DNA from: an uncultured Bacteroidota bacterium
Lineage (GTDB): Bacteria; Bacteroidota; Bacteroidia; Chitinophagales; Saprospiraceae
Assembly (NCBI GenBank): GCA_903933805.1
Contig: CAIZLM010000289.1
Location: forward strand, 1-39,003
Length of the DNA stretch: 39,003 bases
Direction of reading: 5' to 3'
The notes under the pieces are model-generated. The model saw only the letters and a list, made by a program, of their open reading frames with translations. It had not been told where the DNA came from and did no database searches. Of the stretch, positions 10,304 through 33,678 are shown piece by piece. Every line of letters begins with the position of its first letter. Position 1 is the stretch's first letter. The position numbers and the translations under genes are program-made.

Positions 10304-10320
10304 TGGATGTTTCACACTTA

Positions 10321-10483
10321 GTAACTGGTTAGCTTGGTCGCGTCTGAGACGAAAAAGCGGCCATTTTTTGCCAGACGAAGCGGATTTTTGTAGGCCGTAG
10401 CAGCGCTACGTTCAAAAAAATCTGCGAAGTATGGCGGAAAATGGGCCTTTTTGGGCCAGACAGCGTGCCACCTAACCAGTTAC
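10321..10483 (+). repeat. Palindromic interspersed repeat, full copy 1 (163 bp)
   Basis: Bounded by a perfect 12-bp inverted repeat, GTAACTGGTTAG (10321-10332) and CTAACCAGTTAC (10472-10483). Its two halves are complementary almost throughout: the apex is GTAGC-AGC-GCTAC (10398-10410), flanked by GCGGATTTTTG / CAAAAAAATCTGC and by GGCCATTTT / AAAATGGGCC. The transcript could fold into a single ~75-bp imperfect hairpin. It is roughly 85-90 % identical by eye to the copy at 33518-33678. It lies between the TPP riboswitch and the receptor start codon, ending 21 nt before the ATG. No transposase lies nearby. Confidence 0.9.
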
Positions 10484-10504
10484 CACACTTATTCTATTGT
10501 TGCA

Positions 10505-12799
10505 ATGACGAACGTCATGGATTTTCGGGCTCTAGCCCTGTTTTTTTTCCTTCCCTATTGCTTATACGCCCAACAGACCGATTCCTCCAGGGTTGCATCA
10601 ACCCAGGAGACACGGTTGCAAGAAGTGGTAGTCCAGGCCACCCGAGTTGGGCAAAAAAGCCCTGTTCCCCACAATAATTTGCTTTCGGCGAAAATAAACC
10701 AGATACTTCAGGCACAGGATGTACCCCAGTTGTTGTCGGCAATCCCTTCTGTGGTGGAAAGTTCAGACGCGGGTACGGGCATCGGTTATACAGGACTTCG
10801 GATCAGGGGGAGCGATCCCACCCGAGTCAATGTGACCATCAATGGTGTGCCACTCAATGATGCAGAAAGCCAGGGCGTTTATTGGGTTAATCTGCCTGAT
10901 TTGGCCGCTTCTGCGGCTGAAATTCAGGTTCAGCGGGGGGTGGGTACCAGTAGCAATGGCGCGGGCGCTTTTGGCGCTACAGTAAACATTGATCTTTCAA
11001 AGGTGTCGCCCGATCCCGCTGCCAGTATCACCAGCACCGCGGGCGCTTTCAATACCCGAAAATTTTCTGCCCAAATGAATTCAGGTCTGCTCAACGGGAA
11101 ATGGGCGTTTTCAGGCAGGGTATCACGCATCAATTCGGATGGATACATAGACAGGGCTTCCGCTGCATTGGGCTCCATGCACTTGTCAGCAGCATTTATT
11201 GGTGAAAAACAAACAGCCCAGGTGCACTTGCTGTCAGGGCACGAAAAAACCTATCAAGCATGGAATGGAACCCCGGCACAATTTATGGACGATGAGGCGC
11301 TCAGAACATTTAACACCGCTGGGATGGAACGGCCACTTCAGCCTTATGATCAAGAAGTAGATGATTATTCCCAGCGGCACCTCTTGCTGCACTACAAGCG
11401 TATGCTGACACCGTACGTTATGTTGCAATTGAATGGCCATTACACGCGGGGAGCTGGCTACTACGAACAGTATAAAGCTGGCGAAGATTATACCGACTAC
11501 GGACTTTCTCCCTGGGTCATAGGGGATACGACCATTCCTACCACAGACCTAATCCGCCGCCGTTGGCTCGACAATGACTTTTATGGCGGGACATTTGTTT
11601 TGCGCTGGCAACCTGAAAATGATGGCCAAACCAGCATATTGTTGGGTGGCGCCATCAGCCGATATGATGGCGATCATTTTGGAGAAATTATTTGGTCTGA
11701 AAATCCACTGGGAGCGCCAAAGGGGTTTCGTTACTATGAAAACAAGGCAAAAAAACACGATGCCAACATATATCTAAAGGCAGAAAAAAAGTTTTCAGAA
11801 CACTTTAATGCCTTTGTGGATGTGCAGGGTAGGGCGGTTGCTTACCAATTTACCGGATTCAACAACGATTTGACACCGGCCGACCAGTTGGTAAAAGATT
11901 TTTTCTTCAATCCAAAAATGGGTGCCACCTACGCTTGGTCCAAGGCGTGGATGACGTATGCGTATGTCGGTATCGCCCACCGTGAGCCCAACAGAGATGA
12001 TTACACACAGTCTAGTCCAAGTTCCAGACCCCAAGCAGAAAGGCTGTTGGACACGGAATGGGGGGTTAGATTTGAAGGCCGCCATACAACCGCTTCCGCC
12101 AATTTTTTTCTTATGAATTATCGGGACCAGCTGGTGCTCGACGGTAGCATAAACGATGTTGGCGCGTATATCCGGACCAATGTTCCGGTTAGCCATCGGG
12201 CAGGACTTGAATTGGAGGCATCTTCAACACTGGGTGCGTTGTTTTCCGTTGCCGGGAACCTGACGATCAGCCAAAATAAAATCCAGCAATTCACCGAATA
12301 TCGCGACAACTGGGATACGAACCAGCAGGAAATCGTGTTGTACCGCAACCGTAATTTGGCTTTTTCGCCCTCCGTTACGTCACGTGTAGAAGCCTCTTGT
12401 TTGTTGTGGCAAAATTTTGGGAGAAGCCCGAAGGAACATAAAAAACCGAATGGTCAGGTAACAGCGACGATTTCAGGAAAATATGTTGGGAAGCAGTTTT
12501 TGGACAACACGTCCAATGACCTAGCGTCCCTTCCGGCGTATTTTGTCAGTGATATTCGGGTAAATGTTGGGGGGATCCGTGTCCTGGGAAACCAAATGAG
12601 CCTGATTATCACCCTCAACAACTGGTTAAATGCCCGTTATTCTTCCAATGGCTGGGTTTATCGCTATGTATCTGCCGGTTACGATGCTCGTCCGGATGAT
12701 CCATACACGCAATTAGAAGGCGGCGCTGTGTACCATCAGGCAGGTTTTTTTCCGCAGGCCGGCAGGCATTGGATGGCCAGTATTCGGATGGACTTTTGA
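10505..12799 (+). CDS. TonB-dependent outer-membrane receptor, predicted thiamin/thiamin-precursor transporter
   Basis: 764 residues from ATG 10505. The signal peptide is MDFRALALFFFLPYCLYA-QQ. The TonB-box/plug region has LQEVVVQATR, IPSVVESSDAGTGIGYTGLRIRG, VTINGVPLNDAESQGVYWVNLPD and the plug end IQVQRGVGTSSNGAGAFGATVNI. A 22-strand-type barrel ends in the aromatic MASIRMDF. It lacks the SusC CarboxypepD_reg extension and has no SusD partner. The upstream TPP riboswitch is the main reason to assign thiamin or a related compound as ligand; the sequence alone would only say siderophore/vitamin-type receptor. An in-frame TTG at 10451 lies inside the palindromic repeat and is rejected. A second ATG at 10517 is an equally good start for the signal peptide. 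Confidence 0.9.
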   Translation: MTNVMDFRALALFFFLPYCLYAQQTDSSRVASTQETRLQEVVVQATRVGQKSPVPHNNLLSAKINQILQAQDVPQLLSAIPSVVESSDAGTGIGYTGLRIRGSDPTRVNVTINGVPLNDAESQGVYWVNLPDLAASAAEIQVQRGVGTSSNGAGAFGATVNIDLSKVSPDPAASITSTAGAFNTRKFSAQMNSGLLNGKWAFSGRVSRINSDGYIDRASAALGSMHLSAAFIGEKQTAQVHLLSGHEKTYQAWNGTPAQFMDDEALRTFNTAGMERPLQPYDQEVDDYSQRHLLLHYKRMLTPYVMLQLNGHYTRGAGYYEQYKAGEDYTDYGLSPWVIGDTTIPTTDLIRRRWLDNDFYGGTFVLRWQPENDGQTSILLGGAISRYDGDHFGEIIWSENPLGAPKGFRYYENKAKKHDANIYLKAEKKFSEHFNAFVDVQGRAVAYQFTGFNNDLTPADQLVKDFFFNPKMGATYAWSKAWMTYAYVGIAHREPNRDDYTQSSPSSRPQAERLLDTEWGVRFEGRHTTASANFFLMNYRDQLVLDGSINDVGAYIRTNVPVSHRAGLELEASSTLGALFSVAGNLTISQNKIQQFTEYRDNWDTNQQEIVLYRNRNLAFSPSVTSRVEASCLLWQNFGRSPKEHKKPNGQVTATISGKYVGKQFLDNTSNDLASLPAYFVSDIRVNVGGIRVLGNQMSLIITLNNWLNARYSSNGWVYRYVSAGYDARPDDPYTQLEGGAVYHQAGFFPQAGRHWMASIRMDF

Positions 12800-12844
12800 G
12801 AAAACAGGAGCGATATTTGATCGTAGATACTGTCATGGACGATT

Positions 12845-12876
12845 AAATCCCGAGCAGCTCCGGCTGTTCGGGATTT
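12845..12876 (+). terminator. Intrinsic terminator of the thiamin-receptor gene
   Basis: A 14-bp stem with one G-U pair (AAATCCCGAGCAGC / GCTGTTCGGGATTT) closes a TCCG tetraloop, then TTTTCATT. It lies 45 bp after the receptor stop. The convergent tRNA has its own terminator further right. Confidence 0.85.
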
Positions 12877-12990
12877 TCATTATATAAACAATTAGGAGCG
12901 CCCCGTCATTACAAGACACTCCTAGGGTAAATCAATGCCTTTTTATTCGAACCATGTTATTGGTTTCATGGTTGTAAAACTGTTGAATAT

Positions 12991-13031
12991 CAAAAAAATA
13001 AGCCATTTCACAGCGTTGCTTGCGAAGTGGC
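12991..13031 (-). terminator. Intrinsic terminator after tRNA-Leu
   Basis: On the minus strand GCCACTTC / GAAATGGC (8 bp, one G-U pair) is followed by TTATTTTTTTG. It starts 16 bp beyond the tRNA 3' end, so it terminates the tRNA transcript, possibly together with the upstream coiled-coil gene. Confidence 0.7.
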
Positions 13032-13046
13032 CTATTGTGTAATAAG

Positions 13047-13131
13047 TGCCCGGAACAGGACTTGAACCTGCACGACCTTTAAGGGTCAAGGGATTTTAAG
13101 TCCCTCGTGTCTACCGTTTCACCATCCGGGC
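13047..13131 (-). tRNA. tRNA-Leu (anticodon UAA)
   Basis: The 85-nt class II tRNA has acceptor GCCCGGA pairing with TCCGGGC plus discriminator A. The anticodon arm is AGGGA-CTTAAAA-TCCCT, with anticodon TAA at the loop centre. A long variable arm follows, then GGTTCAAGTCC as the T-arm. CCA is not encoded. It lies 30 bp downstream of, and on the same strand as, the coiled-coil gene. Confidence 0.96.
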
Positions 13132-13161
13132 TGCTGCGCAAAGGTAACGGTATTGTGTCTG

Positions 13162-16100
13162 TTATTCTTTCTTCTTTGACTTTTCTATTGATTCTTTTAA
13201 TTTTTTTAATTCTTCTGCGGCACTTTTTACGTCAGCAATAAGCTGTGTAAGTTTTTGATTTTCAGTTATTTGTGCCTGTTTAGCAGCGTCTATTTTTTTG
13301 TTTTCCCCGTTGATAATTTCTGCGGCGTCACTTTTGGCTTTGCCTATTTCAGCGGCGGTTTGGTTTTTTATTTCTGCGATGGCTTTGGTTTCGTTGTCTC
13401 TCGTTTGAGCGATAGCAGAAGCGGCTTCTTGACGCACTTTTTGGACGCCATCAGCGGCTTCTTTTTGAGCGGATCCGATTTCATCTATGGATTTTTTTCG
13501 GGCATCTGCGGTTTCTGCGGCATATTGTTGGCGTTTTTCATCGGCTTCTTTTCGAGCGTTTGCCACCTCTGTTGCCGCTGCTGCCCGCATATCGGCGACA
13601 TCTTTGCGTGCGCGATCCTGTGCTTCCACCACCTCTTTTGCGAGTGCTGCTTTTTTGTCGTCGGATTCCCTTTTGGCCAGTGCGATGGCTTCCAGTGCTT
13701 GCTGTTTGGCGGTGGCCACTTCTTTGGCACTGGATTCGCGGGTAGCGGCTATTTGTATTGCGGCTTCCTCCTTGGTTTTTCCGATGGCTTCTGCGCTGGC
13801 TTGTTTTTCGCGGGCGGAGTTTTCGCGGGCTGTTTTCACGTCATTGGCAGCTTGTTGGTTGGCGGCGGCAATTTCGCTGGCTGCTTTTTGTCGGGCATCG
13901 GCTACGTCGGTTGCGAGTTTTTGTCGGGTGTTGGCGCTGTTTTCGCGGGCGATGCGTACGCTATCAGCTTCGGCTGTTTTCACGGCCAGAATAGCTTGGC
14001 TGCTTTGTCGTTTGGCCTCTGCGGCAGCGTTTGCTGCTTCTTGTTGAGCGCGAACGGCAGCTTCACGGGCGGCAGCCACGTCATTGGCGGCTTTTTCCCT
14101 TGCTGCGGCGATTTCTGCGGCTGCTTTTTCGCGAGAAGCGATGACTTCAGCAGCGGAGGCCGTTACGGTTTCCACCTGTTTTTTCTTGGCTTCAACGACG
14201 GCAGCGGCAGCTTCTGCCTGTATTTGTTTGATTTTTTCTTCAGCGGTTTGTTTCGAAGTTGAAACCTCCCCAGCGTACTGTTTTTGTACTTCACTGGCTT
14301 TGGCATTGGCTTCCAGCACCCTTGTGCGGGCTTCTTCCTGGGCTTTGGCGACTTCCTGCGCACTGCGTTCGCGGGCAGCTTTAACGGCTTCGGCGCTTTC
14401 CATTTTTATGAGTTCCTCCTGTGCTTTTACGGCTGCGATAGACTTGGCCAATTCAGCTTGAATGCGGGAGATTTCTTCTTCACCTTTTTTACGGGAGGCT
14501 GCTACTTCCACGGCAATAGAGTCACGCTGAGACTTGGAACGGTCTTGCGATTGAGCAATGACTTTAGCGGCTTCGTCCTGCACTTGCTGCACGTTTTGAG
14601 CCGCTTTTTGCTTGCTTTCGACCACCTGTTTGGAGATCTCTTGTTTATCAGCTTCGGCTTTTTTTTGTTGGTCGGCCACCTCCGTTCGGATACGGCCGAT
14701 CTCTTCGGAAGCTCGTTTGCGAGCATCTGCGACTTCTGTTGCAGATGCTTCTTTTTGCTTGGCAGCATTTTCTCGCAACTCCACCAGTTCATTGGATGTA
14801 TTTTGTTGCAACAAGGCTTTTTCTTCCGCTGCTTTTCGCCTGCTTTCTGCCAGGTCTGTGGCCAGCTTTTGTCTTTCTAGGACAATGTTTTCACGGGTTT
14901 TGGCTACTTCATTGGCAGCTTCTTCCCGTACCTGGAGTATTTGTTCCGCGGCTGTTTTTTTGCTTTCTACAACATCCTGAGCTGTTTTGGTGGATTCCAG
15001 TTTGGCCATGGATCTTGCTTCTGAGACGATACGAGCATTTTCTTCTCGGATTCGTTTGAGCTCTTCGTCGGCATTAGCCCGTGCAGAAGACACTTCGTCA
15101 CTGTATTGGAGTTTGGCATTTTCCAGTTTTTCTTTGACGGCTGCGACTTCTTTGGCCGCGGCCTCACGAGCCTTCTGCACTTCTTCTGAGGAGGCAACAC
15201 GGGCGCGCTGAATCTCTTCACCTGCTTGACGTCGTGCATCTTCTACATTGGTATTGATTTTGGTAACCGCAGAATCGGCCTTTGATTTGCTTTGCGACAC
15301 GTATGCCTGTGCTTCGGCCTTCGCTTTTTCAATTTCGACAAGGCTACTTTTACGGGATTCAAGTACCTCGTTGTTAAACTCCATTTTTTTGTTGTTGGCT
15401 GCTTCTCTGGCAGCTGCGACCTCCTGTAATATTTGCGCTTTTATCGCATCTGCCCGATCGCGCTCGGCTTTTATTTCACCGCGGAGTTTTTCTTTGACTT
15501 TTTCTAGGTCTGATCGCAAGGCGGTGACTTCGCTGTCGCTGGATGTCCCTCCGGTTACGGCGGCGCCACCAGATGAAGGTTTTGTGGCTGTTCCAGGTTT
15601 TCCGCCGGCGCCTGTGGGTGTTCCGGGCGTGGATGCAGTGCTTTCGGGTTTGGTTACGGCTGCACCGGGAGAATCAACCACGGATCCTTTTTCCAAGATA
15701 TTGTAAAAGCAAGTTGCCAGCGATTTGAATTCAGATTGCCGGTCTGCATTGATGGTGAATTTAAATTTCTGCCTGTCAACGAAGTTGATAAAATTGATGC
15801 CAATAACATTGGAGGCAGAAAGCCACTGCATGGCTTCTAAGTCAAGTCGTAAGTTGTTGCGGTGGGTTGGTACGGCCCCAGGCATTAACTCATCCATGCC
15901 GGTAAATTTGTATGCCTTTTCTTTTCCGGAAGCATCTACAAAAACAACTTGATCATCTTGGTTAAATTCAATGCCACCTTGCGATACAAATTTTGCGAAA
16001 ACACCTTTTTCATTCGCAAAAAATTCAATAAAATAGGTGTATCCCCCGCGAACAACAACGGCCAATTGACTCGTATTGGCAATCTGTACGCCGGATATTT

Positions 16101-16206
16101 TTTTATTTTCTTTGATATTTTTGGCGCAATCTTGGGCGGTTGCAAAGCCCGGAATGAGCAATATGGGCAGCAAAATGGGGAGTAAAAGTCTGTAGAGAAG
16201 CTGCAT
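13162..16206 (-). CDS. Exported giant alanine-rich coiled-coil protein
   Basis: 1014 residues from ATG 16206, which opens a clear signal peptide (LLLPILLPILLIPGFATA-Q). Upstream in-frame codons would bury it behind 55 unlikely residues. Residues ~25-172 form a compact beta-rich domain I do not recognise (VVVRGGYTYFIEFFANEKG, two Cys at 27 and 166). Residues ~175-222 are a Pro/Thr/Gly/Ser linker. Residues ~224-1005 are one nearly unbroken charged, Ala-rich helix made largely of 11-residue units such as EEIQRARVASS, EEVQKAREAAA, AAEIAAAREKA and ANDVAAAREAA (hendecad coiled coil). There is no membrane anchor, lipobox or T9SS tail, so a periplasmic rod or spacer is the likely state. The tRNA gene follows in the same direction. 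Function unknown. Confidence 0.88.
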   Translation of the reverse strand: MQLLYRLLLPILLPILLIPGFATAQDCAKNIKENKKISGVQIANTSQLAVVVRGGYTYFIEFFANEKGVFAKFVSQGGIEFNQDDQVVFVDASGKEKAYKFTGMDELMPGAVPTHRNNLRLDLEAMQWLSASNVIGINFINFVDRQKFKFTINADRQSEFKSLATCFYNILEKGSVVDSPGAAVTKPESTASTPGTPTGAGGKPGTATKPSSGGAAVTGGTSSDSEVTALRSDLEKVKEKLRGEIKAERDRADAIKAQILQEVAAAREAANNKKMEFNNEVLESRKSSLVEIEKAKAEAQAYVSQSKSKADSAVTKINTNVEDARRQAGEEIQRARVASSEEVQKAREAAAKEVAAVKEKLENAKLQYSDEVSSARANADEELKRIREENARIVSEARSMAKLESTKTAQDVVESKKTAAEQILQVREEAANEVAKTRENIVLERQKLATDLAESRRKAAEEKALLQQNTSNELVELRENAAKQKEASATEVADARKRASEEIGRIRTEVADQQKKAEADKQEISKQVVESKQKAAQNVQQVQDEAAKVIAQSQDRSKSQRDSIAVEVAASRKKGEEEISRIQAELAKSIAAVKAQEELIKMESAEAVKAARERSAQEVAKAQEEARTRVLEANAKASEVQKQYAGEVSTSKQTAEEKIKQIQAEAAAAVVEAKKKQVETVTASAAEVIASREKAAAEIAAAREKAANDVAAAREAAVRAQQEAANAAAEAKRQSSQAILAVKTAEADSVRIARENSANTRQKLATDVADARQKAASEIAAANQQAANDVKTARENSAREKQASAEAIGKTKEEAAIQIAATRESSAKEVATAKQQALEAIALAKRESDDKKAALAKEVVEAQDRARKDVADMRAAAATEVANARKEADEKRQQYAAETADARKKSIDEIGSAQKEAADGVQKVRQEAASAIAQTRDNETKAIAEIKNQTAAEIGKAKSDAAEIINGENKKIDAAKQAQITENQKLTQLIADVKSAAEELKKLKESIEKSKKKE

Positions 16207-16281
16207 AAATCGAGTTGTATGGTAGAGATTGATGTTAATTGGTACGGACTTGTCGCGGCAAAATAGCAACTTTTTCGTCAC

Positions 16282-16289
16282 CAAACATA
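16282..16289 (-). promoter_or_regulatory. Putative -7 element for the coiled-coil gene
   Basis: CAAACATA on the plus strand is TATGTTTG on the minus strand, an exact TAnnTTTG match, 75 bp before the start codon. No -33 box is seen at the usual distance. Confidence 0.35.
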
Positions 16290-16460
16290 AGATGCTGCCA
16301 ACTTGTATTGCGTTGCCCGAATAATCATTAAAAAAAAACGGGTACAGCCAAATTTTTTTGGTGGTGAACACCGCTTTGGATTGTTTTTTATTGAAATTGG
16401 ACAGTATCTTTTCATTTTATTTGCGCTAAAAGCGCGACTTTGCGGCCTAGTTCAAAAAAC

Positions 16461-17654
16461 ATGATACAAATATATTTAAAGCCCGGCAAAGAGGTTCCTG
16501 TACTCCGTTTTCATCCCTGGATTTTTAGCGGTGCCATTTCACATGTTGAAGGAAATCCTGAAGACGGCGATGTGGTAGAGGTGCGTGACCGAAAAGGGGC
16601 ACTGCTCGGCGTTGGTCATTTTCACTACGGAAGTATAACGGTTCGATTGTTGAGTTTTGGTCCAGCCGATCTGCACGATGGGCTGTTTTGGACCCAAAAA
16701 ATTCAGAACGCACTCGATGTTCGCGCCTTGTTGTTTGACCCTTTTTCTGAGGGTCGCACATTTCGCCTTCTTCACGGGGAGGGTGATGGACTTTCGGGGT
16801 TGATTGTAGATATCTATGGCGACTCTGCTGTAGTGCAGTGCCACAGCATTGGTATGTACCGCCAAAAGGAAATGGTTGTTGCCGCCTTGCGCAATGTTTT
16901 CGGCGCGCACTTGAAAGCAGTCTATGATAAAAGTGCAGAGGCATTGCCCCTCAAATTTGCTGAAAAAATGAACAACGGCTATCTTTGGACTGCGGATTCT
17001 TTTGTTGTTGAGGGCCCTCAAATTGTTGTTGAAAATGGGGCGAAATTCCACGTAGATTGGCAAAAAGGTCAGAAAACAGGTTTTTTTCTGGACCAACGCG
17101 ACAACCGTCAGCTCTTATCACAATACGCAAAAGATAAAACAGTCCTCAACGCTTTCTGCTACACCGGTGGTTTTTCCTGTTATGCCTTGAAAGCGGGCGC
17201 TAAACTGGTACATTCTGTCGATGTTTCAGCGAAAGCCATGGATACATGTGCAGAAAATGTCCTGCTGAATTTACCGTATCCCGGTGAACATGTGGGCTAT
17301 ACGGAGGATGTATTGCAGTTTCTAAAAAACACAGAACACCAATATCAAGTGATGGTCATTGATCCCCCGGCTTATGCTAAGAGTATGGAAAAACGCCACA
17401 ATGCGGTTCAGGGCTACAAACGTCTCAATGTAGCGGCGATGAATAAGTTGGCGCATGGAGGGGTCTTGTTTACTTTTTCTTGCTCACAGGTGGTTGACCG
17501 TGATTTGTTTTATCACACCATCGCGGCCGCTGCCATGGAAGTTGGTAGGCCGGTTCGGGTACTGCACCACCTCACCCAAGGAGCCGACCACCCGGTCAGC
17601 TTGTTTCATCCGGAGGGGTCGTACCTGAAAGGCTTGGTATTGAAACTTGATTAA
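16461..17654 (+). CDS. rlmI: 23S rRNA (cytosine-C5)-methyltransferase, RlmI family
   Basis: 397 residues. The N-terminal PUA-like domain (IYLKPGKEVPVLRFHPWIFSGAI, GDVVEVRDRKGALLG) precedes a central RlmI-type stretch (LLHGEGDGLSGLIVDIYGD, GQKTGFFLDQRDNR). The class I SAM domain has motif I VLNAFCYTGGFSCYAL, VDVSAKAM, motif IV VIDPPAYAKS and the catalytic Cys341 in FTFSCSQVV. RlmI methylates C1962 of 23S rRNA in E. coli; the exact base here is inferred. ATG 16461 is chosen over an upstream in-frame TTG at 16440. The gene is divergent from the coiled-coil gene (254 bp between) and followed by a short derivative of the palindromic repeat. Confidence 0.9.
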   Translation: MIQIYLKPGKEVPVLRFHPWIFSGAISHVEGNPEDGDVVEVRDRKGALLGVGHFHYGSITVRLLSFGPADLHDGLFWTQKIQNALDVRALLFDPFSEGRTFRLLHGEGDGLSGLIVDIYGDSAVVQCHSIGMYRQKEMVVAALRNVFGAHLKAVYDKSAEALPLKFAEKMNNGYLWTADSFVVEGPQIVVENGAKFHVDWQKGQKTGFFLDQRDNRQLLSQYAKDKTVLNAFCYTGGFSCYALKAGAKLVHSVDVSAKAMDTCAENVLLNLPYPGEHVGYTEDVLQFLKNTEHQYQVMVIDPPAYAKSMEKRHNAVQGYKRLNVAAMNKLAHGGVLFTFSCSQVVDRDLFYHTIAAAAMEVGRPVRVLHHLTQGADHPVSLFHPEGSYLKGLVLKLD

Positions 17655-17663
17655 ACAGGTATG

Positions 17664-17729
17664 GTACTTGTTTTTTTTGTAATAAAGCAGGTAATTGCGT
17701 CGGAGACAGCGTGCCACCTAACAAGTTAC
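17664..17729. repeat. Short, internally deleted relative of the palindromic repeat (66 bp)
   Basis: The right 25 bp (17705-17729) match the right end of copy 1 at 24 of 25 positions, through AGCGTGCCACCTAAC. On the left, GTACTTGTT (17664-17672) is complementary to the terminal AACAAGTTAC apart from one missing base. The interior is not shared with the long copies. It ends 32 nt before the ATG of the dienelactone-hydrolase-family gene. Confidence 0.6.
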
Positions 17730-17761
17730 CCAAAATAATAGATTCTTTTCAAGCAATAATT

Positions 17762-18604: not shown

Positions 18605-18769
18605 TCGGGTCGTTTTTAAATGGCATCATGTAAACGGTTTGGAAACAGGTTACATACAGTAGGGTAGTTGGTTCGCATACTCCTCCCGAAAGCAATGGGA
18701 ACTGCTGACGCCCTGCGCTTAGCGCTCGACAAACTTAAAATACTTGCTAATTAATTTATATATAAAATT

Positions 18770-20005: not shown

Positions 20006-20100
20006 CAGGCGTTAACTTACCAATGTTCCAGCATACATGAACCAATCGCGAGAAACAACGCTATTGCCTAAATAATGGGGTAATATTCACCTTGTTTAAT

Positions 20101-21765: not shown

Positions 21766-21786
21766 AGCCGGGCGCATTTTTTAAAC

Positions 21787-21813
21787 GTAACACGTTACTT
21801 CGAAACAAGTTAC
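21787..21813. repeat. Repeat-terminus-like motifs before the SNase-like gene
   Basis: AACACGTTAC and AACAAGTTAC occur 5 bp apart (21789-21798 and 21804-21813). The second is identical to the right terminus of the short element at 17720-17729. The block ends 20 nt before the ATG at 21834. The long interior is absent, so it is either a terminal relic or an independent motif. Confidence 0.35.
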
Positions 21814-21833
21814 ACAATAAAATTCTTCAAGAC

Positions 21834-22811: not shown

Positions 22812-22875
22812 GAAGGCGTTAGACTGTGATTAAAGTGATTTTGATGAATTGATTGATTGCAAATATTTGATTTTA

Positions 22876-22960
22876 GTAACTGGGAGGTGGTCGAGTCCTT
22901 CAAGCATTGATGATAATTGCATCTGTAAGCCTAATATATAATACCACGCTGACCAGTTAC
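22876..22960. repeat. Short relative of the palindromic repeat (85 bp)
   Basis: Left terminus GTAACTGGGAGGTGGTCGAG and right terminus CCACGCTGACCAGTTAC; the outer 8 bp are perfect inverted repeats. The left side resembles the truncated copy at the window's right edge (GTAACTGATTGGCGTGGTCG). The interior differs from the long copies. It sits just after the SNase-like gene and directly beside a strong hairpin. Confidence 0.6.
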
Positions 22961-23006
22961 AATACCAATGGGGCGTTTGACATCTTGTCAGCGCCCCATT
23001 GGTATT
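22961..23006. terminator. Long hairpin between convergent genes, probable bidirectional terminator
   Basis: A perfect 15-bp stem (AATACCAATGGGGCG / CGCCCCATTGGTATT) has an inner TGACA/TGTCA extension. It lies between the convergent SNase-like gene and the PUL's last GH16 gene, 20 bp past the GH16 stop. Neither side has a long U-tract, so termination is likely but not certain. Confidence 0.6.
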
Positions 23007-23026
23007 ATAGGTTGTTGGCACTGGTA

Positions 23027-24247: not shown

Positions 24248-24285
24248 ATTTTTCAGTTGTTGATAAGTCGTGAATTCAAGTTTTT

Positions 24286-25116: not shown

Positions 25117-25134
25117 AGTATCTTAAAATGAATG

Positions 25135-25968: not shown

Positions 25969-26021
25969 TTTAATGAATTGAAGGATGCACAAGTGGTTGC
26001 GTTCATTGATCCAAGACTTAC

Positions 26022-27515
26022 TCAATAGCCCGGGTTTTGGGATATTGCACCATTTGTCGCCAATATTTGTGATTGTGGAATGGGAAATAATTCATGTGTT
26101 CCCGCTACAAATCCGAGGTTACCCAGTACTGTTGCGGCCTGTTTGGTACGCACCAAATCGAAAAACCGGTGCGCTTCCAGTCCGAGTTCTATACGACGTT
26201 CGCGATAAATGGCGTCCAACAAGGCTGTCCCAGTGGCTGAAATAGGCGGAATGGCAACACGGGAACGCACCTTGTTGAGCGAAATTTTGGCGGCAGTTTC
26301 GTCACCCGTGCGGTAGGCTGCTTCCGCGTGCATCAACAGCACGTCTGAGTAGCGTATCACCCGATCGTTGGAGCCCCCGTTTGGGTTTGGATCGCCAAAT
26401 GGCGCGTCTTCGCTTCTGTTGTTAAAATATTTTTTGGGGTAATACAGGGAGGGTAAGTCGCCAGTTGCCGCAAGGGTGAATATTCCCCGGTCGCCCATGG
26501 CATCTCCCACGCGGAATACGGTAGATTTGAGACGTGGGTCTTCGAAGCCTTCTTTAAAAAATTCGTCCACAAAATTTTGAGTGGGCAGGTTAAATCCATA
26601 ACCAGCAAATTGGCCCCGGGCACGCTGGAATACATTGGTAAAACTGCCTTCGTTTGAATTGTTTTTACCCCAGTTGCCCCCCGAAGCATTCATATACTGA
26701 ATTTCAAACACAGATTCCGCATTGTTCTCCCCATATAGGGTGAAGATATCTGCGTAGTTTTCTGTCAATTGATATTCATTGGAAGTGACGATGCTTTCGG
26801 CTGTTGTTCTGGCTTCGGCCCATTTTTCCCGCCACAGGTATGTTTTTACAAGAAGGGCCTGGGCGGCACCCTGCGTAATCCGGCCGAGATCGCTTTCCGC
26901 GTAAGCACTGCGTTTCCACAAATCGCGGGATGCTTCGGTCAGGTCCTTTTCGATCAAATCCCAAATGGCAGAGGCGGTTGCTCGTGGAATGTTATACTCT
27001 GAAGGCGCCAATACGTGGTCGGCAAGTGGTACACCGCCGAACATTATCACCAAATTGTAGTAATTCCAAGCTCGGATAAATTTTGCTTCACCCAAGATAC
27101 GGGCTTTTAATTTTTCATCCATGACGATGCCCGGAACTTTTTCAAGTACTACATTGGCCCGGTAGATGCCCTCATAGTCAGCACTCCACTCAGATTCCAA
27201 TAAATCGGTGTTGGTTGGTCCCTTAAAAGTTTCCAACTGCAACAGGGTGTTGACGTCGTTGTCGCCCGAGCCACCTTTTACAGCATCGTCAGACATGATG
27301 TCGCCCCAAAACCACCGAAAATGTCCCGATGGTGATATCTGAAATTGAAGGGTTGCGTACACAGCATTTACCCCAGCAACAGCGTCGTCCGCTGTTCTGT
27401 AAAAGTTCTCTTCTGTGATGCCAACGATAGGCTTTTTTTCTAAAAAGTCTTTTTGACACGCCGAAAAGGCGATAAAAAAGGACAAACAAATTTTCAATAT
27501 TGCATTCTTTTTCAT
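26022..27515 (-). CDS. SusD/RagB-family glycan-binding lipoprotein of the GH16 PUL
   Basis: 497 residues. The signal and lipobox are SFFIAFSAC (Cys20). SusD hallmarks are DFLEKKPIVGITEENFYRTADD near the N-terminus, RVIRYSDVLLMHAEAAYRTGD, LNKVRSRVAIPP and YRERRIELGLEAHRFFDLVR, and the closing FPIPQSQILATNGAISQNPGY. It should pair with the SusC of this locus, but that gene ends 2.9 kb upstream and two T9SS cargo genes lie between, an atypical order. The gap to the preceding gene is 13 bp, so it is still within one operon. It likely binds beta-glucan oligosaccharides, judging by the two GH16 enzymes downstream. Confidence 0.94.
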   Translation of the reverse strand: MKKNAILKICLSFFIAFSACQKDFLEKKPIVGITEENFYRTADDAVAGVNAVYATLQFQISPSGHFRWFWGDIMSDDAVKGGSGDNDVNTLLQLETFKGPTNTDLLESEWSADYEGIYRANVVLEKVPGIVMDEKLKARILGEAKFIRAWNYYNLVIMFGGVPLADHVLAPSEYNIPRATASAIWDLIEKDLTEASRDLWKRSAYAESDLGRITQGAAQALLVKTYLWREKWAEARTTAESIVTSNEYQLTENYADIFTLYGENNAESVFEIQYMNASGGNWGKNNSNEGSFTNVFQRARGQFAGYGFNLPTQNFVDEFFKEGFEDPRLKSTVFRVGDAMGDRGIFTLAATGDLPSLYYPKKYFNNRSEDAPFGDPNPNGGSNDRVIRYSDVLLMHAEAAYRTGDETAAKISLNKVRSRVAIPPISATGTALLDAIYRERRIELGLEAHRFFDLVRTKQAATVLGNLGFVAGTHELFPIPQSQILATNGAISQNPGY

Positions 27516-27528
27516 GCTGACTTGACTT

Positions 27529-28722
27529 TTATTCTTTTATCAATAGAATGGTGCGTGGTTGTGCATTGAATATTTTCAACCAATAGATTCCCGCTGGAAT
27601 ATTCGTAAAATCTTGATTTTGCAGGTCATTGCCGGCGAAAAACAGTGTTCCTGATGTATTTAGCAGCTCAAAATACGCTTCCTCCGTGTTTTGTTCTAGG
27701 TAAATATGCGATGAAAAGGGATTGGGAAATACGCGGCCAATGGTTGGTTGCTTCGGTGCTGTCGCACCAACGATATTCCCGGTCTCCGGCCCGCGTACAC
27801 ACAGGAGGTTGATAGATTTTGATTTCACATCGTGGGTTGTGATACCAAATCTGGTATCCAAATACCAAGCTTGAACTGTTTGGTTGGGAAGGCTGGTGGA
27901 AGACCAGTATTTTTTCAGTCCAATGGCGCTGAAAAACAAGGTGTTTATGGACGGATTGACCAAGTTTTCATCATTTAGGGACTGTAGCTCTTTGATATTG
28001 GGCAGCCGCCAGTCACTTTTACCTGCCAGTGACAAATTTTCTGCATATTGCAGTGATTGTTCCCAAGTTAGGGTGTCGTTGAGTGGCACCTTTTGCCAGA
28101 CCAACCCAGTCAATTGATCTGTGATGGTATTATTTCCATGGTCTATAAAATGGGGTATAGCAGCGGTTGGTGCATAAATGTCCCGCACAGCCCTTACGTG
28201 AAACCTTTTTGTTCCACCTGCACTGATTGTTTCTAATTTTTGGTGGTTCCCGATTCCCCCTCCGGCGTTGGTAACCCATATTTTGGTGTTGTCATTGGCC
28301 TGGCGGTTGCTTGTCCACCAATATTCGGCATTGGTAGGAGCGAAAACGGTCAAATTCAAGGCTGGATTGGAATAATTATGGTTTAAAATACAGAAAGCTT
28401 CGTGCGCATTGGGTAGCCGCCAATCGGAATAGCCGCCCAGTGTGAGGGTATCGCAATAGTTGAGCGCATTTTCGATGGTCATTTCACCACCATCGGTTTG
28501 CTGCCACATCAGTCCGGTGACAGTATCTGTCACGCTTCCGTTGCCATTGATAAGGAAGTAGGGTGTAAAGATGTTGTAGTCAGCGTCTTCACCTTGGGAA
28601 GCGGTGAAATTGCTTGTTTGGCCGGTATCAGGCAATCTAAGCATGGTTTTGACCACGTTTTGACCAAAAGTCAAAACGGATGGCAAACAAAACAATGCAA
28701 AAGAGAGGATAGTTTTTTTCAT
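27529..28722 (-). CDS. DUF1566 (Lcl) double-domain protein with T9SS type A tail
   Basis: 397 residues. The signal peptide is FALFCLPSVLTFG-Q. Two copies of the DUF1566/Lcl fold follow: GLMWQQTDGGEMTIENALNY ... GGYSDWRLPNAHEAFCILN ... YWWTSNRQ, then GLVWQKVPLNDTLTWEQSL ... LAGKSDWRLPNIKELQSL ... KKYWSSTS. The C-terminus (GRVFPNPFSSHIYLEQ to IPAGIYWLKIF) is a T9SS type A sorting domain, so the protein should be carried across the outer membrane. The fold is C-type-lectin-like, and some relatives bind collagen or glycans; ligand binding here is inference. It lies 16 bp after the YHYH gene and 13 bp before susD. Confidence 0.88.
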   Translation of the reverse strand: MKKTILSFALFCLPSVLTFGQNVVKTMLRLPDTGQTSNFTASQGEDADYNIFTPYFLINGNGSVTDTVTGLMWQQTDGGEMTIENALNYCDTLTLGGYSDWRLPNAHEAFCILNHNYSNPALNLTVFAPTNAEYWWTSNRQANDNTKIWVTNAGGGIGNHQKLETISAGGTKRFHVRAVRDIYAPTAAIPHFIDHGNNTITDQLTGLVWQKVPLNDTLTWEQSLQYAENLSLAGKSDWRLPNIKELQSLNDENLVNPSINTLFFSAIGLKKYWSSTSLPNQTVQAWYLDTRFGITTHDVKSKSINLLCVRGPETGNIVGATAPKQPTIGRVFPNPFSSHIYLEQNTEEAYFELLNTSGTLFFAGNDLQNQDFTNIPAGIYWLKIFNAQPRTILLIKE

Positions 28723-28738
28723 GCGAATTTGTGGCCTA

Positions 28739-30346
28739 CTACAGCACGATGATTTTTTTCGTTACCAATTGATTCGACAGTTGAATTTTTACAAAATACG
28801 GCCCTTTTGCCAAGTGGTTTATGTCCAATTTTGGTGTGTAATGATCTGTTTGATACACCTTTTTGCCTTTTAAATTATACAAGGATATTGCTAGAATATC
28901 ATTTGGCAGCACGGCGTCTGATAACTGTATAGAAATTCCGTCATTGGCCGGATTGGGAAACACCAAGAGTTGGCTATCATCTACTTCAGCATCGAATGTA
29001 GCCGTGGGCACATCGCATTGGGCAAAGCCATTGTATATTTGGGTGGTGGTACCCCCGGGGTTCACAAAATTGAAGGTGTAAACCCCGGCTTGTGTCCAAC
29101 TGTATTGCAGTGTGTACGTTTGGCCTGATTTCGTGTAGGTAAGGGTGTATCCGAAAGGCCCGTTTGACTGGCAATCGGTGATGACAGCTCCCTGCAACGG
29201 TGTTCCCGCTGGCCTTATTGGATTCGCATGCGCCTGTGGGATTATCTGTAAGGTATTGTCTTCTGTTACTTTTCCAACCATGTTCCCAATCATGTAGGGT
29301 GCCGTGCTTGTCCCGTGGTAGTGATAGACGCCATCGTCGCCATAGTGGCCGTGGTTGGCATCCAGTGCGATCATAGTTGCTCCATCAGGTTCCAGGCTGC
29401 CATACACAGCGAATCCATCCAGTGCAAAAGCGATGGGCAATATGGCGGGGGTTACATCGTCCAAAAATAACGGCGCAGTATGATAGTGATAATCATCTGC
29501 TCGGCCACAGTGCCCGCCATAATTGTCCAATTGGCCGTCCAAAAGTGCATCAACACCGGTATTGGTAAAGGGGTTGAAGATGGGAACGCCGTTTGCCGCA
29601 ATTGCAATGGCCCCGCGGAGGAAGTGTTGGGGGCTGACAGGCACTGGTGTTGCGGCGATCATGGGGTTGAGCGGTATTGGCCAAGCATTGTTGCCAATAT
29701 AACACTGTGGGATGGGCACTTGTTGCTGCCAACCGGTAATCCCCGTCATCATTTGATGGCTGGGAATCCCCTTGGATTCAACATAAAAATAGGTGTCGTC
29801 CCAAAAGGTATGCACCTTCGGTTTAAAGGGCTCAAAAGCAGCATCAACAAACGCTGGATCCGTCACCACCAATGCCTGTTGAATGTCTGTTTTGAAGCTG
29901 TACAAGGCAGAGACAAGCAACAAACTGATTGCTACGAGCAGGTGTTTTTGTTGGCGCTTGGCGATCAACCAATAAAAGGCCAAAGACACAATTACCATGA
30001 AAAATCCTAAAAACCAACTTTCTCCAATTGCTGTAGGCAACCCAACGCCTTGCTTGACCAGTTGCTGAATGCTGTTAGGATTATTCAGTTGCTCGAGTTT
30101 TGCAACATTTTCACGCACAATAGCCTGGTCTTGCGTGGAAAAAGCAGCGATGGGGTATTGCGCAATCTTGTGGGCAGGATCTTCTAAAAAAACATTTCCA
30201 TTCTTAAACATTAGGAAGGAAGCTTCTATGGTTTGGTTTTCCTTGGCTATGTTCCAATGTTTGAGGGGGACACGATCCTGGCTGAATCCGTGGGCAAAGC
30301 CTATTTGGCAGAACAAGCAACAGAAAACGGGCAGAAATATTTTCAT
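28739..30346 (-). CDS. YHYH-domain protein with internal membrane segments and T9SS type A tail
   Basis: 535 residues from ATG 30346; the longer in-frame start lacks a signal peptide at its front. The signal is VFCCLFCQIGFA-H. Residues ~111-128 (WFLGFFMVIVSLAFYWLI) and ~136-151 (LLVAISLLLVSALYSF) look like two membrane helices. The YHYH domain follows, with DDYHYHTAPLF (286-289) and GVYHYHGT (341-344) plus FALDGFAVYG. The last ~75 residues (LLVFPNPANDGISIQL to AKGPYFVKIQL) are a T9SS type A sorting domain. YHYH proteins have no settled function; the His/Tyr clusters suggest metal binding. It is 92 bp after susC and 16 bp before the DUF1566 gene, so part of the PUL operon. Confidence 0.85.
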   Translation of the reverse strand: MKIFLPVFCCLFCQIGFAHGFSQDRVPLKHWNIAKENQTIEASFLMFKNGNVFLEDPAHKIAQYPIAAFSTQDQAIVRENVAKLEQLNNPNSIQQLVKQGVGLPTAIGESWFLGFFMVIVSLAFYWLIAKRQQKHLLVAISLLLVSALYSFKTDIQQALVVTDPAFVDAAFEPFKPKVHTFWDDTYFYVESKGIPSHQMMTGITGWQQQVPIPQCYIGNNAWPIPLNPMIAATPVPVSPQHFLRGAIAIAANGVPIFNPFTNTGVDALLDGQLDNYGGHCGRADDYHYHTAPLFLDDVTPAILPIAFALDGFAVYGSLEPDGATMIALDANHGHYGDDGVYHYHGTSTAPYMIGNMVGKVTEDNTLQIIPQAHANPIRPAGTPLQGAVITDCQSNGPFGYTLTYTKSGQTYTLQYSWTQAGVYTFNFVNPGGTTTQIYNGFAQCDVPTATFDAEVDDSQLLVFPNPANDGISIQLSDAVLPNDILAISLYNLKGKKVYQTDHYTPKLDINHLAKGPYFVKIQLSNQLVTKKIIVL

Positions 30347-30438
30347 GACAAAAGTAGGATTTAGACTTTCATGAACCAATGTGTGGCAAACAGCCAATTT
30401 TTCCTGGGTCAATGGAAGCAGGAAAGCACATTTTTCAT

Positions 30439-33400
30439 TTAAAAAGTAAGGCTTACCCCTCCCATGATTGTTCTTGCTTGCGGATAGAAACCCCGGTCAA
30501 TACCAACTTCTAGGCTGCCACCAATATTACCGATTTCAGGATCGAGGCCGGAGTACTTGGTTAGCGTAAGTAGGTTTTGAGCAGTCACATAGATTTTCAT
30601 TTTCTCAAAATGGGCTTTTTTAAGCCATTTTGAAGGTAAATTATAGCCCAGTTGAACAGTTTTTAGGCGCAAATACGACCCGTCTTCGACAAAACGGTCA
30701 GACACTCGGGCATTCTGATTGGGATCTGTCAGGCTGACGCGTGGCTCCGAATTGGACGTTCCCGGACCTGTCCATCGCGCAAGTGCAGCAGCAGGCCGAT
30801 TGACGTAGGTGAAATCATAGCGAATGGTATTGAGGTAAATGTCATTGCCTTGTGATCCTTGTAGGAAGATATTCAATTCCAGTCCTTTCCACTCAAAATC
30901 GGTGTTGAATCCGTACGTGAACCGGGGTGTAGGGTTTCCAATGTACGTACGGTCGTTGGCATCAATGGTACCGTTGCCGTCAATATCTTTAAAGCGAATG
31001 TCACCGGGTACTGTTTCATTGCTTTGAAAGGCTGCCGACGCCACTTCTTCCGGTGTTTGAAATATTCCGTCTGTTACATACCCGAAGAAAGATGCAACGG
31101 GTTGTCCAACGTCTGTTTTGGAGGCATTGGCATTCGCAGATTGTACATAGCCGGAATACACAGGTTCACCGCCCCGTCCCAAACTGGTGACCGTACTTTT
31201 TACAAAGGCAATGTTACCGCCAATGGTGAAATGCACGGGGTGGTCAAAATTTCTGTAATTGAGGGAAAGTTCAAGCCCACGATTCTCTGCCGTTGCAACG
31301 TTTTGAATGGGTGCAGCAGTACCTGCCACCAGAGGAATGGGGGCAGCGTACAGCATATCAGATGTTTTTTTGATGTAGTAATCAGTGGTAAAATTGAAGC
31401 GGCCATCGAGCAATTCCATGTCCAGGCCGATATCTGTCTGGGTACTGGTTTCCCATTTCAAATCTGGGTTGGCTGCGCTGAGGGCTACACTGCCGTTTGT
31501 AATGTTTTCGTTGGGACCAAACGTATAGTTTTGCCCATTGTACACCACGGTGGTGAAACTGTAGTCGCCGATTTTATCATTGCCATTTTGGCCCCAACTG
31601 GCGCGTAATTTGAAAAAATTGATGGCTTTAACCTTCCAAAAATCTTCATGACTGGCGATCCAGCCTGCTGAAAAGGAGGGAAAGTAGCCGAAACGGTTGT
31701 TTTTTCCGAAACGGGAGGAGCCGTCGGCACGGAAAGTAGCGGAAAGTAAGTAGGTGTTTTTTAGTTCATAATTGGCTTTTCCAAACCAGGAGAGCAGCGA
31801 GGATTCACTGGCGTACTGGTAGGCACTTTGGGATGCAATAGGATCAATGGTGTTGGAGATATAGGCATCTTTAGGATCATTCGATGGCAAGTTGGTGTTG
31901 GCTCCGCCGTTTGCGTCAAATCGGTTGTTGAGGGCTGTTGTGCCGGCAATGAGGGTAAGGGCGTTGTTGTCGTTGAATTTTTTATCCCAGGTAAGTACAT
32001 TCTCCATCTGCCAGTTTCGCCAGTTGTTGTTGGCTACGCCCACACTGTTGACAAGGTTTTTTTCTGCTGCGGGGGCTTCACTGAGCGAGGCAATGTTGCT
32101 TAGGTCAAAACGTGGATTGAAATTACGCTGCACCGCGAAGGTGGCATCCAAACTGTACGCGCTGTGAAAAGTCAAGTTTTTCGCCAATTTTATATCTGCG
32201 TAAACGCTTCCTACCAAACGGTTACTACGCCAGGTACTGTGGGTTTGTTCAATGCCATTGACTGGGTTTGCGATGTCGGTACTGGTATAATTTGAATAGG
32301 CAAAGGTGCCGTCGGCTTTGCGAACGGGCGTGATGGGGTCCATATTCAGGGCCCGGATGATGGGGGAGTTGTACTGATTGTTTTCCGAAAGGCCTTGGCG
32401 TTCAAGCCAAGTAAAGCCGAGGTTGTTGCCGATGGTCAACCAAGGTTTCAGATCGTGTGTGCCATTAAGTCGTACGGTGGCGCGTTGAAAATTGGCTTTA
32501 TCCCCACCCACAATGCCATCCTGGGTAAAATAATTACCAGAAAGCGTGTAGGCTGAATGTTCACCGCCGCCCGTAAAGGTGAGCTGATGACTTGCAATGG
32601 GCGCGTGCTGAAATATGGCTTCTTGCCAGTCTGTTCCTGCTCCCAGGTATTCAGGATTGGCAAATTCAGGCAATGGTGTTTTCCCAGCTGCCAGGTAAGC
32701 TTCGTTTTGCAGCACGGCATACTCGCGGGCATCTAGCAGGTCAAGAAGTCTGCCCGGGCGTTGAATACCGAAGTAAGCATCATAACTGATTTTGCCGGAT
32801 TGATTGCGCTTGCCGCCTTTGGTGGTGATTAGGACCACCCCGTTTGCACCGCGGGATCCGTAAATAGCCGACGAAGCGGCATCTTTCAACACGTTGATGG
32901 TTTCAATGTCATTGGGATTGAGAAAATCCAGGCCATCCACCGGAATACCATCCACAATATACAATGGATCGCTGTTGTTGATGGTTCCGACACCTCTAAC
33001 TCTCACTGTTAGACCGCTGCCGGGCGACCCCGAAACTTGCGCAACTTGTACCCCGGCTGTACGGCCTTGCAGGGCTTGTTCTACCCGCAAAATGGGGCGT
33101 TCAGCAATTTCAGCTGCAGCAACCGTAGAAACACTACCACTGATACTCGATCTTTTTTGGCTGCCATAACCCGTAACCACCACTTCACTGAGCTGTGACG
33201 CGTTTTCCAACAGTATTACATCAATTTTTCTGCGGTTACCCACCTCAATTGATTGAGTGGTAAATCCGGTGTAGGAAAAAACCAATACTGTCTGCTCATT
33301 TGGGACCTTGATGCTAAAGTTGCCATCAATATCGGTGACAGTACCTGAATTTGTTCCCTTCAAAATGATGGAAACACCAATGGCAGGTTCGCCGCTCGCA

Positions 33401-33486
33401 TCAAGCGACACGGTGCCTACGACGTTGACTTGTGCGTGAAGGGTGATAAACAAGGTTAAAAACAGCGTAGAAAATAGAAATCGCAT
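30439..33486 (-). CDS. SusC/RagA-family TonB-dependent transporter of the GH16 PUL
   Basis: 1015 residues. The signal peptide is LFLTLFITLHA-Q. A CarboxypepD_reg-like domain (VVGTVSLDASGEPAIGVSII to FSYTGF) precedes the plug with LSEVVVTGYGSQKRSSISGS, ALQGRTAGVQV, DPLYIVDGIPVDG and the SusC signature INVLKDAASSAIYGSRGANG. The barrel ends in GGVSLTF. First gene of the seven-gene minus-strand PUL, it would import beta-glucan oligosaccharides released by the GH16 enzymes. A full copy of the palindromic repeat ends 31 nt upstream of the start codon, where promoter or leader would be. Unlike most PULs, susD is not the next gene. Confidence 0.96.
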   Translation of the reverse strand: MRFLFSTLFLTLFITLHAQVNVVGTVSLDASGEPAIGVSIILKGTNSGTVTDIDGNFSIKVPNEQTVLVFSYTGFTTQSIEVGNRRKIDVILLENASQLSEVVVTGYGSQKRSSISGSVSTVAAAEIAERPILRVEQALQGRTAGVQVAQVSGSPGSGLTVRVRGVGTINNSDPLYIVDGIPVDGLDFLNPNDIETINVLKDAASSAIYGSRGANGVVLITTKGGKRNQSGKISYDAYFGIQRPGRLLDLLDAREYAVLQNEAYLAAGKTPLPEFANPEYLGAGTDWQEAIFQHAPIASHQLTFTGGGEHSAYTLSGNYFTQDGIVGGDKANFQRATVRLNGTHDLKPWLTIGNNLGFTWLERQGLSENNQYNSPIIRALNMDPITPVRKADGTFAYSNYTSTDIANPVNGIEQTHSTWRSNRLVGSVYADIKLAKNLTFHSAYSLDATFAVQRNFNPRFDLSNIASLSEAPAAEKNLVNSVGVANNNWRNWQMENVLTWDKKFNDNNALTLIAGTTALNNRFDANGGANTNLPSNDPKDAYISNTIDPIASQSAYQYASESSLLSWFGKANYELKNTYLLSATFRADGSSRFGKNNRFGYFPSFSAGWIASHEDFWKVKAINFFKLRASWGQNGNDKIGDYSFTTVVYNGQNYTFGPNENITNGSVALSAANPDLKWETSTQTDIGLDMELLDGRFNFTTDYYIKKTSDMLYAAPIPLVAGTAAPIQNVATAENRGLELSLNYRNFDHPVHFTIGGNIAFVKSTVTSLGRGGEPVYSGYVQSANANASKTDVGQPVASFFGYVTDGIFQTPEEVASAAFQSNETVPGDIRFKDIDGNGTIDANDRTYIGNPTPRFTYGFNTDFEWKGLELNIFLQGSQGNDIYLNTIRYDFTYVNRPAAALARWTGPGTSNSEPRVSLTDPNQNARVSDRFVEDGSYLRLKTVQLGYNLPSKWLKKAHFEKMKIYVTAQNLLTLTKYSGLDPEIGNIGGSLEVGIDRGFYPQARTIMGGVSLTF

Positions 33487-33517
33487 GGTGTGATGTTTGA
33501 CATTCTAAAGAATAAAG

Positions 33518-33678
33518 GCAACTGGTTAGGCGGTCGTGTCTGAGACAAAAAAGAGGCCATTTTTTGCCAGACGAAGTGGATTTTACAGGCTGTAGCAGCG
33601 CTACGGTCAAAAAAATCTGCTAAGTATAGCGAAATTGGGCCATTTTGAGCCAGACAGCCTACCACCTAACCAGTTACG
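33518..33678 (+). repeat. Palindromic interspersed repeat, full copy 2 (161 bp)
   Basis: Same family as 10321-10483 and in the same plus-strand orientation. The left end GCAACTGGTTAG (first-pair T to C) and right end CTAACCAGTTAC form the terminal inverted repeat. The apex GTAGC-AGC-GCTAC is identical to copy 1, and the interior is complementary arm to arm (GGATTTT / AAAAAAATCTGC, GGCCATTTTTTGCC / GCGAAATTGGGCC). Differences from copy 1 are scattered single bases plus small indels. It lies just upstream of the minus-strand susC. Confidence 0.9.

Follow-up and report, generated by a model that had tools for sequence, protein, structure and literature searches.

Contig CAIZLM010000289.1 (C289), a 39,003-nucleotide stretch of DNA from an uncultured Saprospiraceae bacterium that we analyzed at its full length and refer to as the window, belongs to a 4.21-Mb, 336-contig genome and carries copies of a hairpin-forming element of about 160 bp. 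The first full-length copy (copy 1; 10321..10483, + strand, 163 bp), delimited by block alignment, fold and the genome consensus, begins with the left terminal inverted repeat GTAACTGGTTAG (10321..10332, +), ends with the right terminal inverted repeat (10472..10483, −), and is flanked by two identical 8-bp target-site duplications, CACACTTA, at 10313..10320 and 10484..10491 (both unstranded). Between these ends lies a conserved hairpin core (10347..10458, +) that scores 108.7 bits with our covariance model R1 and is supported by alignments A1 and A3. Copy 2 (33518..33677, +, 160 bp) begins GCAACTGG, has its core at 33543..33652 (+; R1, 91.5 bits), and lies between exact 8-bp duplications, GAATAAAG, at 33510..33517 and 33678..33685 (unstranded). 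The two copies match at 82-92% over three blocks, rather than at the apex and ends alone, and both are far more stable than dinucleotide shuffles (z of -8.8 for copy 1 folded as DNA and -8.3 for copy 2 folded as RNA). An earlier, sequence-only reading of the window had recognized both copies as imperfect palindromes and placed the start of copy 2 correctly, with its end one base too far, at 33678. The third copy that it proposed is also real, with 28 bases (38976..39003, +) preceding the contig end that cuts the rest off, while the two shorter relatives that it listed (17664..17729 and 22876..22960, unstranded) are degenerate, each keeping a right end recognizable with 1 mismatch.

The family extends far beyond the window and is far larger than that reading had stated, with hundreds of copies in the genome. 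The end motif GTAACTGGTTAG occurs exactly 302+295 times genome-wide, compared with 1+1 for the same pattern read backwards; with up to one mismatch, the counts are 589+563 and 15+16, respectively, so chance can be excluded as the source of these repeats. We assessed complete elements in the window plus 40 further stretches, a non-random sample of 827,014 bases (19.7% of the assembly) from contigs picked by length and known hits, and defined a paired element by GTAACTGGTTAG/CTAACCAGTTAC ends with at most two mismatches each. This sample held 111 paired elements in two size groups, 58 long ones of mostly 159-165 bp and 53 short ones of mostly 77-80 bp, the 78-bp form lacking the inner ~85 bases that make up the inner hairpin. 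Scaled to the genome, these counts correspond to about 565 elements; in the sample, the elements make up 1.6% of the sequence. Nearly all elements were intergenic (98 of 111), with 12 at stretch edges and 1 overlapping an open reading frame (ORF) from a simple in-house gene caller, which gave a coding fraction of 82%. The element breaks the assembly, because contig C2 starts with a copy, while copies are cut by the ends of the window itself and of contigs C6, C13, C19 and C21. For one window protein, the nearest named orthologs listed, possibly with the window's own record left aside, are in metagenome-assembled genomes mostly labelled Saprospiraceae, at about 70% identity; the names of family and class used in this account follow from these labels.

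Target-site duplications accompany a large share of these elements. The flanking 8-mers were identical in 35 of the 111 elements (0.38 expected from shuffled flanks) and agreed with at most two mismatches in 69 (4.5 expected); in the first 30 loci fetched, 15 had exact 8-bp duplications. The window elements are non-autonomous DNA transposons: they combine a short non-coding body, terminal inverted repeats and target-site duplications with ends that are also found on an autonomous transposon. This supports the suggestion in the sequence-only reading of a miniature inverted-repeat transposable element (MITE)-like family. At four loci, tandem copies are spaced by 7-8 bp (L096:9684-9934, L098:12997-13327, L099:10950-11282 and G000:C37:1145-1478), as if new copies had landed in the target duplication of an earlier copy.

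The autonomous transposon with matching ends is an IS66-type insertion sequence (IS) in a congeneric genome, G009. At this locus (L117), an IS66-type element has the ends GTAACTGGTTAGCCT, which equal those of the window palindromes (GTAACTGGTTAG), and an exact 8-bp duplication, TTTTCAGA. Two copies of another transposase-like frame (187 aa each), presumably an IS1-like gene inserted twice, flank the IS66 frame on both sides within L117:585-3714. Elsewhere among the relatives, locus L133 (G056) is a candidate, with both GTAACTGGTTAG-type ends 1050 bp apart, and three genomes (G016, G020 and G042) have single GTAACTGGTTAG-type ends backed by the same IS-like sequence. The correspondence between palindromes and IS66-type elements recurs with other ends, as the element at L112 (G007) has an exact 8-bp duplication and ends, GTAAAAACTTAG, that match palindromes of G003 and G012. 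Three PF03050 (IS66-type) matches lie in the own genome, among them a 1441-bp element with perfect ends GTAACTATCCAGCCGCCT (L033) and an element with ends GTAAGCCTCCCAC, starting GTAAGCC, and an exact 8-bp duplication (L031); the L033 ends GTAACTATCCAG match a palindrome of G012 (L064). All four candidate helper proteins examined with Pfam carry DDE_Tnp_IS66, DUF6444 and zf-IS66, with zf-IS66 above the cut-off in L117 only, and a search with the 464-aa L033 protein gave matches in 7 of 42 genomes of the genus, own included (E<=1e-20). As other candidate helpers, DDE_Tnp_ISL3 had no match in the own genome, and the three DDE_Tnp_1 matches there all lack these ends. The duplications, the copy number and the ends matching the congeneric IS66-type element are observed directly; we infer the transposase step, for which IS66-type transposition in trans would be the best reading of these sequences.

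The ~110-nt hairpin core is more widely distributed than the ends. BLAST searches with the element over 40 genomes (own included) found matches in 7. Outside the own genome, identity was mostly 68-80%, and the match often covered the interior only. When these loci were read, the elements of G014 kept the same ends, while in the other genomes the ends differed and the middle was common. Covariance model R1, a home-built model from 27 cores whose E-values are rough, detected the core in 31 of 42 genomes of the genus (E<=1e-4), in 44 of 150 sampled genomes and 36 of 112 genera of the family (E<=1e-6), and in 13 of 295 genomes of the class, or 12 of 294 without the own genome, which is included in our counts unless said otherwise. 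These 12 other genomes lie outside both the family and the order. Copy numbers per genome from these searches are lower bounds. For genomes other than the own one, the representative is mostly the best match per genome, and many of these genomes are fragmented. As controls, R1 was run on 62 loci without a Saprospiraceae label (700 kb), where nothing matched at E<=1, and on 18 loci that mostly bear the label Saprospiraceae or that of near kin (204 kb), where there was one match, with an E-value of 0.48. The core of G431, from another family, is identical to the own-genome consensus at 68 of 84 positions and scores 80, against a shuffle maximum of 29; in plain alignment, 22 of the 25 representatives scored above all 300 shuffles, which supports homology for most of them. 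Viral contigs, searched with two exact patterns, gave no match, nor did plasmids and phages, with one distant search each. Neither a low copy number nor an alignment failing beyond apex and ends, results that would have spoken against the sequence-only reading, was observed. That reading had no means of seeing that one core is common to elements whose ends are unrelated, both within the family and in other families of the class.

The core is a module carried on elements of near-constant length with unrelated end classes, across the genus, family and class. Despite their differing ends, core-bearing elements span 158-165 bp in those end classes for which length was measured; loci truncated at the end of a contig are not part of these counts. 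In the GTAA...TTAC class, exact 8-bp duplications flank 4 of 7 elements in G014 and 3 of 5 in G003/G012. The GAGCATGTT-type class has 3-bp TNA duplications, with equal 3-mers at 8 of 11 palindromes (L242, L246-L253, L256 and L257), a count that leaves out four chance pairings in L252 and L253 (15 pairings with them). Equal 3-mers flank 1 of 3 elements of the GAAGTTGTTTGAG class and 5 of 8 elements of the GAGGCTG/GAAACTG type, found outside the family and 160-164 bp long; in a ninth locus of this type, L307, the ends were not found. Some of the palindrome end classes are resembled by the ends of DDE_Tnp_1 elements in the genus: L272 (G046) has ends GAACGTGTTCGGGAATTT adjoined by TTA and TAA, L269 (G043) has ends TAGACTTGTTCGGAAAT and L271 (G020) has ends TAGACTTCTTGCGAAAG, all similar, not equal, to the palindrome ends GAGCATGTTSGGGA and GACTTGTTGCGG. 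The IS5-like (IS5/IS1031) assignment of the other end classes is therefore a lead only. Different interiors also occur on GTAACTGGTTAG ends, in hairpins at L126:1501-1674 (G021; 174 bp, apex region GGTGCAGCGCACC) and L139 (G048), which may represent a second hairpin module on these ends. At L128:563-607 (G048) and L130:1468-1512 (G006), mini-palindromes of 45 bp combine GTAACTGGTTAG-type ends with a GCGCTGCC apex.

Pairing within the core covaries and is strand-specific. In alignment A3 (28 lineages), 28 of 32 pairs showed changes on both sides, and 92.9% of cells were paired, compared with 69.1% after shuffling and 50-58% when slid. With the strand of representatives assigned by homology, the same strand had the lower RNA energy in 34 of 34 representatives from the own and congeneric genomes, by a mean of 17 kcal/mol. 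For folds as DNA it was the lower in 33 of these 34; in other genera and families, for which RNA folds were computed, it was again the lower in 14 of 14. A model using sequence alone picked the same strand in 25 of the 25 loci given, as did plain alignment, once by a single point. Arm mismatches on the stable strand are mostly purine-purine and G-T, with 178 A-G versus 21 C-T mismatches (A-G higher in 31 of 34 representatives, 3 ties) and 145 G-T versus 75 A-C mismatches. Two internal loops recur on it: CAGACGAGGC (at most three mismatches) on the stable strand of 33 of 47 representatives, 27 of them in register, and on the other strand of 5; and CGAAGTATGG (at most two mismatches) on the stable strand of 20 of 47 and never on the other. 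Covarying pairs and strand-specific structure, features by which structured RNAs are recognized, are both present.

The mutations of resident copies show a different pattern from the consensus. Single-side changes among 75 own-genome copies were symmetric (96 G-T versus 108 A-C, p=0.44), while 12 of the 13 mismatches in the own-genome consensus are purine-purine or G-T. The structure therefore seems to be selected in the spreading lineage and not in each resident copy, although a trans-acting RNA would look alike. Among the 65 of these 75 copies that are at least 90% like the consensus, paired double changes occurred 11 times, compared with 3.4 expected, and unpaired ones 4 times, compared with 2.1 expected; given the paired excess, arm-to-arm copying is allowed as a way in which both ends could change together.

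The neighborhood of copy 1 contains a thiamine pyrophosphate (TPP)-riboswitch-like leader (10095-10270, +) that scored 38.5 bits, under the gathering score of 54.3; copy 1 is inserted between this aptamer and a downstream ORF for a TonB-plug receptor (Plug domain). No terminator-like site was found in 9900-10700 around it. PAD and CN-hydrolase neighbors of copy 1 were found in related loci, but the two genes that flank it were in none of the 18 loci compared, so synteny around it is not kept. Further along, an Rfam match marks a tRNA gene at 13047-13131 (−). At gathering score, Rfam gave no match at the window elements, and at copy 1 it gave none for the element up to E 0.1; matches to plant and animal miRNAs, far below gathering score, were taken as generic hairpin matches.

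We consider it probable that these elements are non-autonomous DNA transposons that use an IS66-type helper in trans and carry a strand-specific core that persists through end change. An IS66-type DDE transposase would recognize the terminal inverted repeats GTAACTGGTTAG and insert the element, mostly between genes, with duplication of 8 bp of the target. The core lineage would persist by swapping its ends, and hence its helper transposase, in register; one hairpin arm would be copied onto the other, such that one new end becomes two. The core would function as a single folded strand, in all likelihood RNA but possibly single-stranded DNA, and may in this form help the element to spread or to tolerate its host. 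We read the family as a long-lived hairpin parasite that would change transposases, with a putative function residing in its core. A bolder form, to which we give somewhat less than even credence, is that a single ancient Bacteroidia hairpin replicator, with neither its own transposase nor fixed ends, retains its folded, strand-specific core and swaps terminal repeats, in register, between unrelated transposase families, namely IS66-type with 8-bp duplications, IS5-like with 3-bp TNA duplications and others. Such a replicator would be a bacterial counterpart, at the DNA level, of short interspersed nuclear elements (SINEs), whose core RNA or single-stranded DNA would aid spread.

A number of observations weigh against persistence through end change with an IS66-type helper. 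As to the helper, the own assembly yielded no IS66 element that ends in GTAACTGGTTAG, its three PF03050 matches having other ends or being partial, with the caveat that its contigs break at repeats; the L033 protein search (E<=1e-20) found nothing in G014, G003, G012, G008 and G023, though palindromes are present there. Element and IS have only about 13 terminal bases in common, and the palindrome ends GTAACTGG keep only GTAA of the GTAAGCG start given for IS66, from which the candidate helpers L117, L112 and L033 likewise depart after GTAA. Equal 3-base flanks were found in 0 of 8 elements of the GACTTGTTGCGG class, whose flanks are mostly TA, and in 0 of 7 of the AAGTACC class. As to the core, plain alignment is weak for G015 and G043, whose scores are reached by 12 and 14 of 300 shuffles, and marginal for G020, with 1 of 300. 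The covariation itself could arise from arm copying in a palindrome, and arm copying in turn draws on 11 paired double changes. The 48 of 48 strand results are not 48 independent events, as the asymmetry sites are partly inherited in common, and G-T mismatches exceed A-C in only 23 of 34 representatives, with 5 ties. Fold and mismatch asymmetry are the evidence from which an RNA role of the core is suggested. Short elements, which lack the inner hairpin, are about as frequent as long ones. Between tandem genes, 22 elements point with the genes and 31 oppose them (p=0.27; 53 of 55 orientable), so that orientation is unbiased. A skew in the first 429 kb (19 opposite versus 8 same) faded over the 827 kb.

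In a simpler account, the elements are an ordinary IS66-derived MITE family with a neutral body, alike across species by common descent and horizontal spread, and with no selected core. Because 78-bp forms are about as numerous as long ones (53 versus 58), the inner part seems dispensable for transposition, and the symmetric evolution of resident copies also fits a neutral body. However, the core is kept while the ends are replaced, its pairing covaries over 28 lineages, the strand asymmetry is near-universal in representatives, and ten autonomous IS loci contained no core (best E 0.43), so that we regard this account as unlikely. With ~13 bp in common with the IS and no core in those loci, the body does not look like a deleted parental transposon, which may reduce an ordinary MITE to a MITE-like variant; the parental IS may also have been lost. 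One-strand stability and the recurrent loops CAGACGAGGC and CGAAGTATGG would also be expected if a host non-coding RNA gene had been captured repeatedly by different transposon ends, as SINEs have captured tRNA or 7SL RNA. Yet nearly all representatives read are palindromic out to transposon-like ends, the exceptions including L258 (palindromic over 118 bases) and L307, mentioned above; no end-less single-copy locus was noticed, without a search aimed at such loci, and the core has no Rfam match at gathering score. Such capture appears distinctly improbable.

Very stable hairpins beside genes, together with the position of copy 1 between the TPP-riboswitch-like leader and the TonB receptor gene, could instead suggest that the host retains the elements as mRNA hairpins, which would serve as terminators or RNase III sites, as for Correia/NEMIS or ERIC. 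The lack of orientation bias, the nearest gene ends (3' in 54 cases and 5' in 42), the lack of a terminator-like site at copy 1 and the symmetric mutation of resident copies all speak against such a role, which we hold to be very improbable. To our knowledge, repetitive extragenic palindromic (REP) elements moved by the Y1 transposases known as RAYT make no target duplication. A REP-like family was the alternative offered by the sequence-only reading, and the intergenic placement, palindromic form and high copy number would suit REP elements or the related BIMEs; this alternative is disfavored because of the exact 8-bp duplications and the terminal inverted repeats in common with a DDE-type IS66 element, which favor DDE-type transposition. 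RAYT genes were not searched for, and we give the REP explanation almost no credence.

Bacterial MITEs are usually viewed as short-lived by-products of one IS. If transposons with an IS66-type helper and a persistent core are indeed what we have described, the survival of a core beyond its ends, over several genera and families, would imply that small repeats in bacteria can form long-lived lineages, which have a selected function of their own and are able to change helper transposases. The core also offers a testable object, namely a hairpin of ~110 nt that prefers one strand and has recurrent internal loops, present in the family and in some other families of the class. On a practical level, ~560 copies break assemblies, as in the window itself. 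Full-text literature searches showed no published description of these elements, most subscription papers being outside the scope of the search. The MITE-like behavior is of a known kind; the new part is the shared strand-specific core with exchanged ends. Cardinium, which belongs to Bacteroidota, offers a comparison from the same phylum.

In the available portion of one account, prokaryotic MITEs (Correia, ERIC, QMITE and Chunjie) are short, high-copy elements at AT-rich intergenic sites, with inverted repeats, target duplications and predicted stable stem-loop transcripts, and are thought to be IS-derived (PMC10969869). The elements described here resemble them in these features, and differ from the MITEs of that portion in that one hairpin core is common to elements whose ends and target duplications are unrelated, conservation is higher in the interior than at the ends, and one strand is consistently the stable one. 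IS66 terminal repeats start GTAAGCG and are accompanied by 8-bp duplications, according to the accessible part of PMC11946415; the 8-bp duplication, the GTAA ends and the DDE_Tnp_IS66, DUF6444 and zf-IS66 domains of the candidate helpers agree with this family, whereas palindromes and helpers lack the GTAAGCG start given there, and the gene-free palindromes, with their ~13 common terminal bases, are unlike internal IS deletions. The IS982-derived MITE of Cardinium has likewise spread in a bacterial genome and is probably maintained by its parental IS, but was derived from one defective parental IS, and no core common to several transposase families is described in the available text (PMC9769881). 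REP palindromes, given as 20-40 bp in the excerpt available of PMC3733652, are also high-copy palindromic repeats, in contrast with which the elements here are about 160 bp long and have terminal inverted repeats and 8-bp target duplications.

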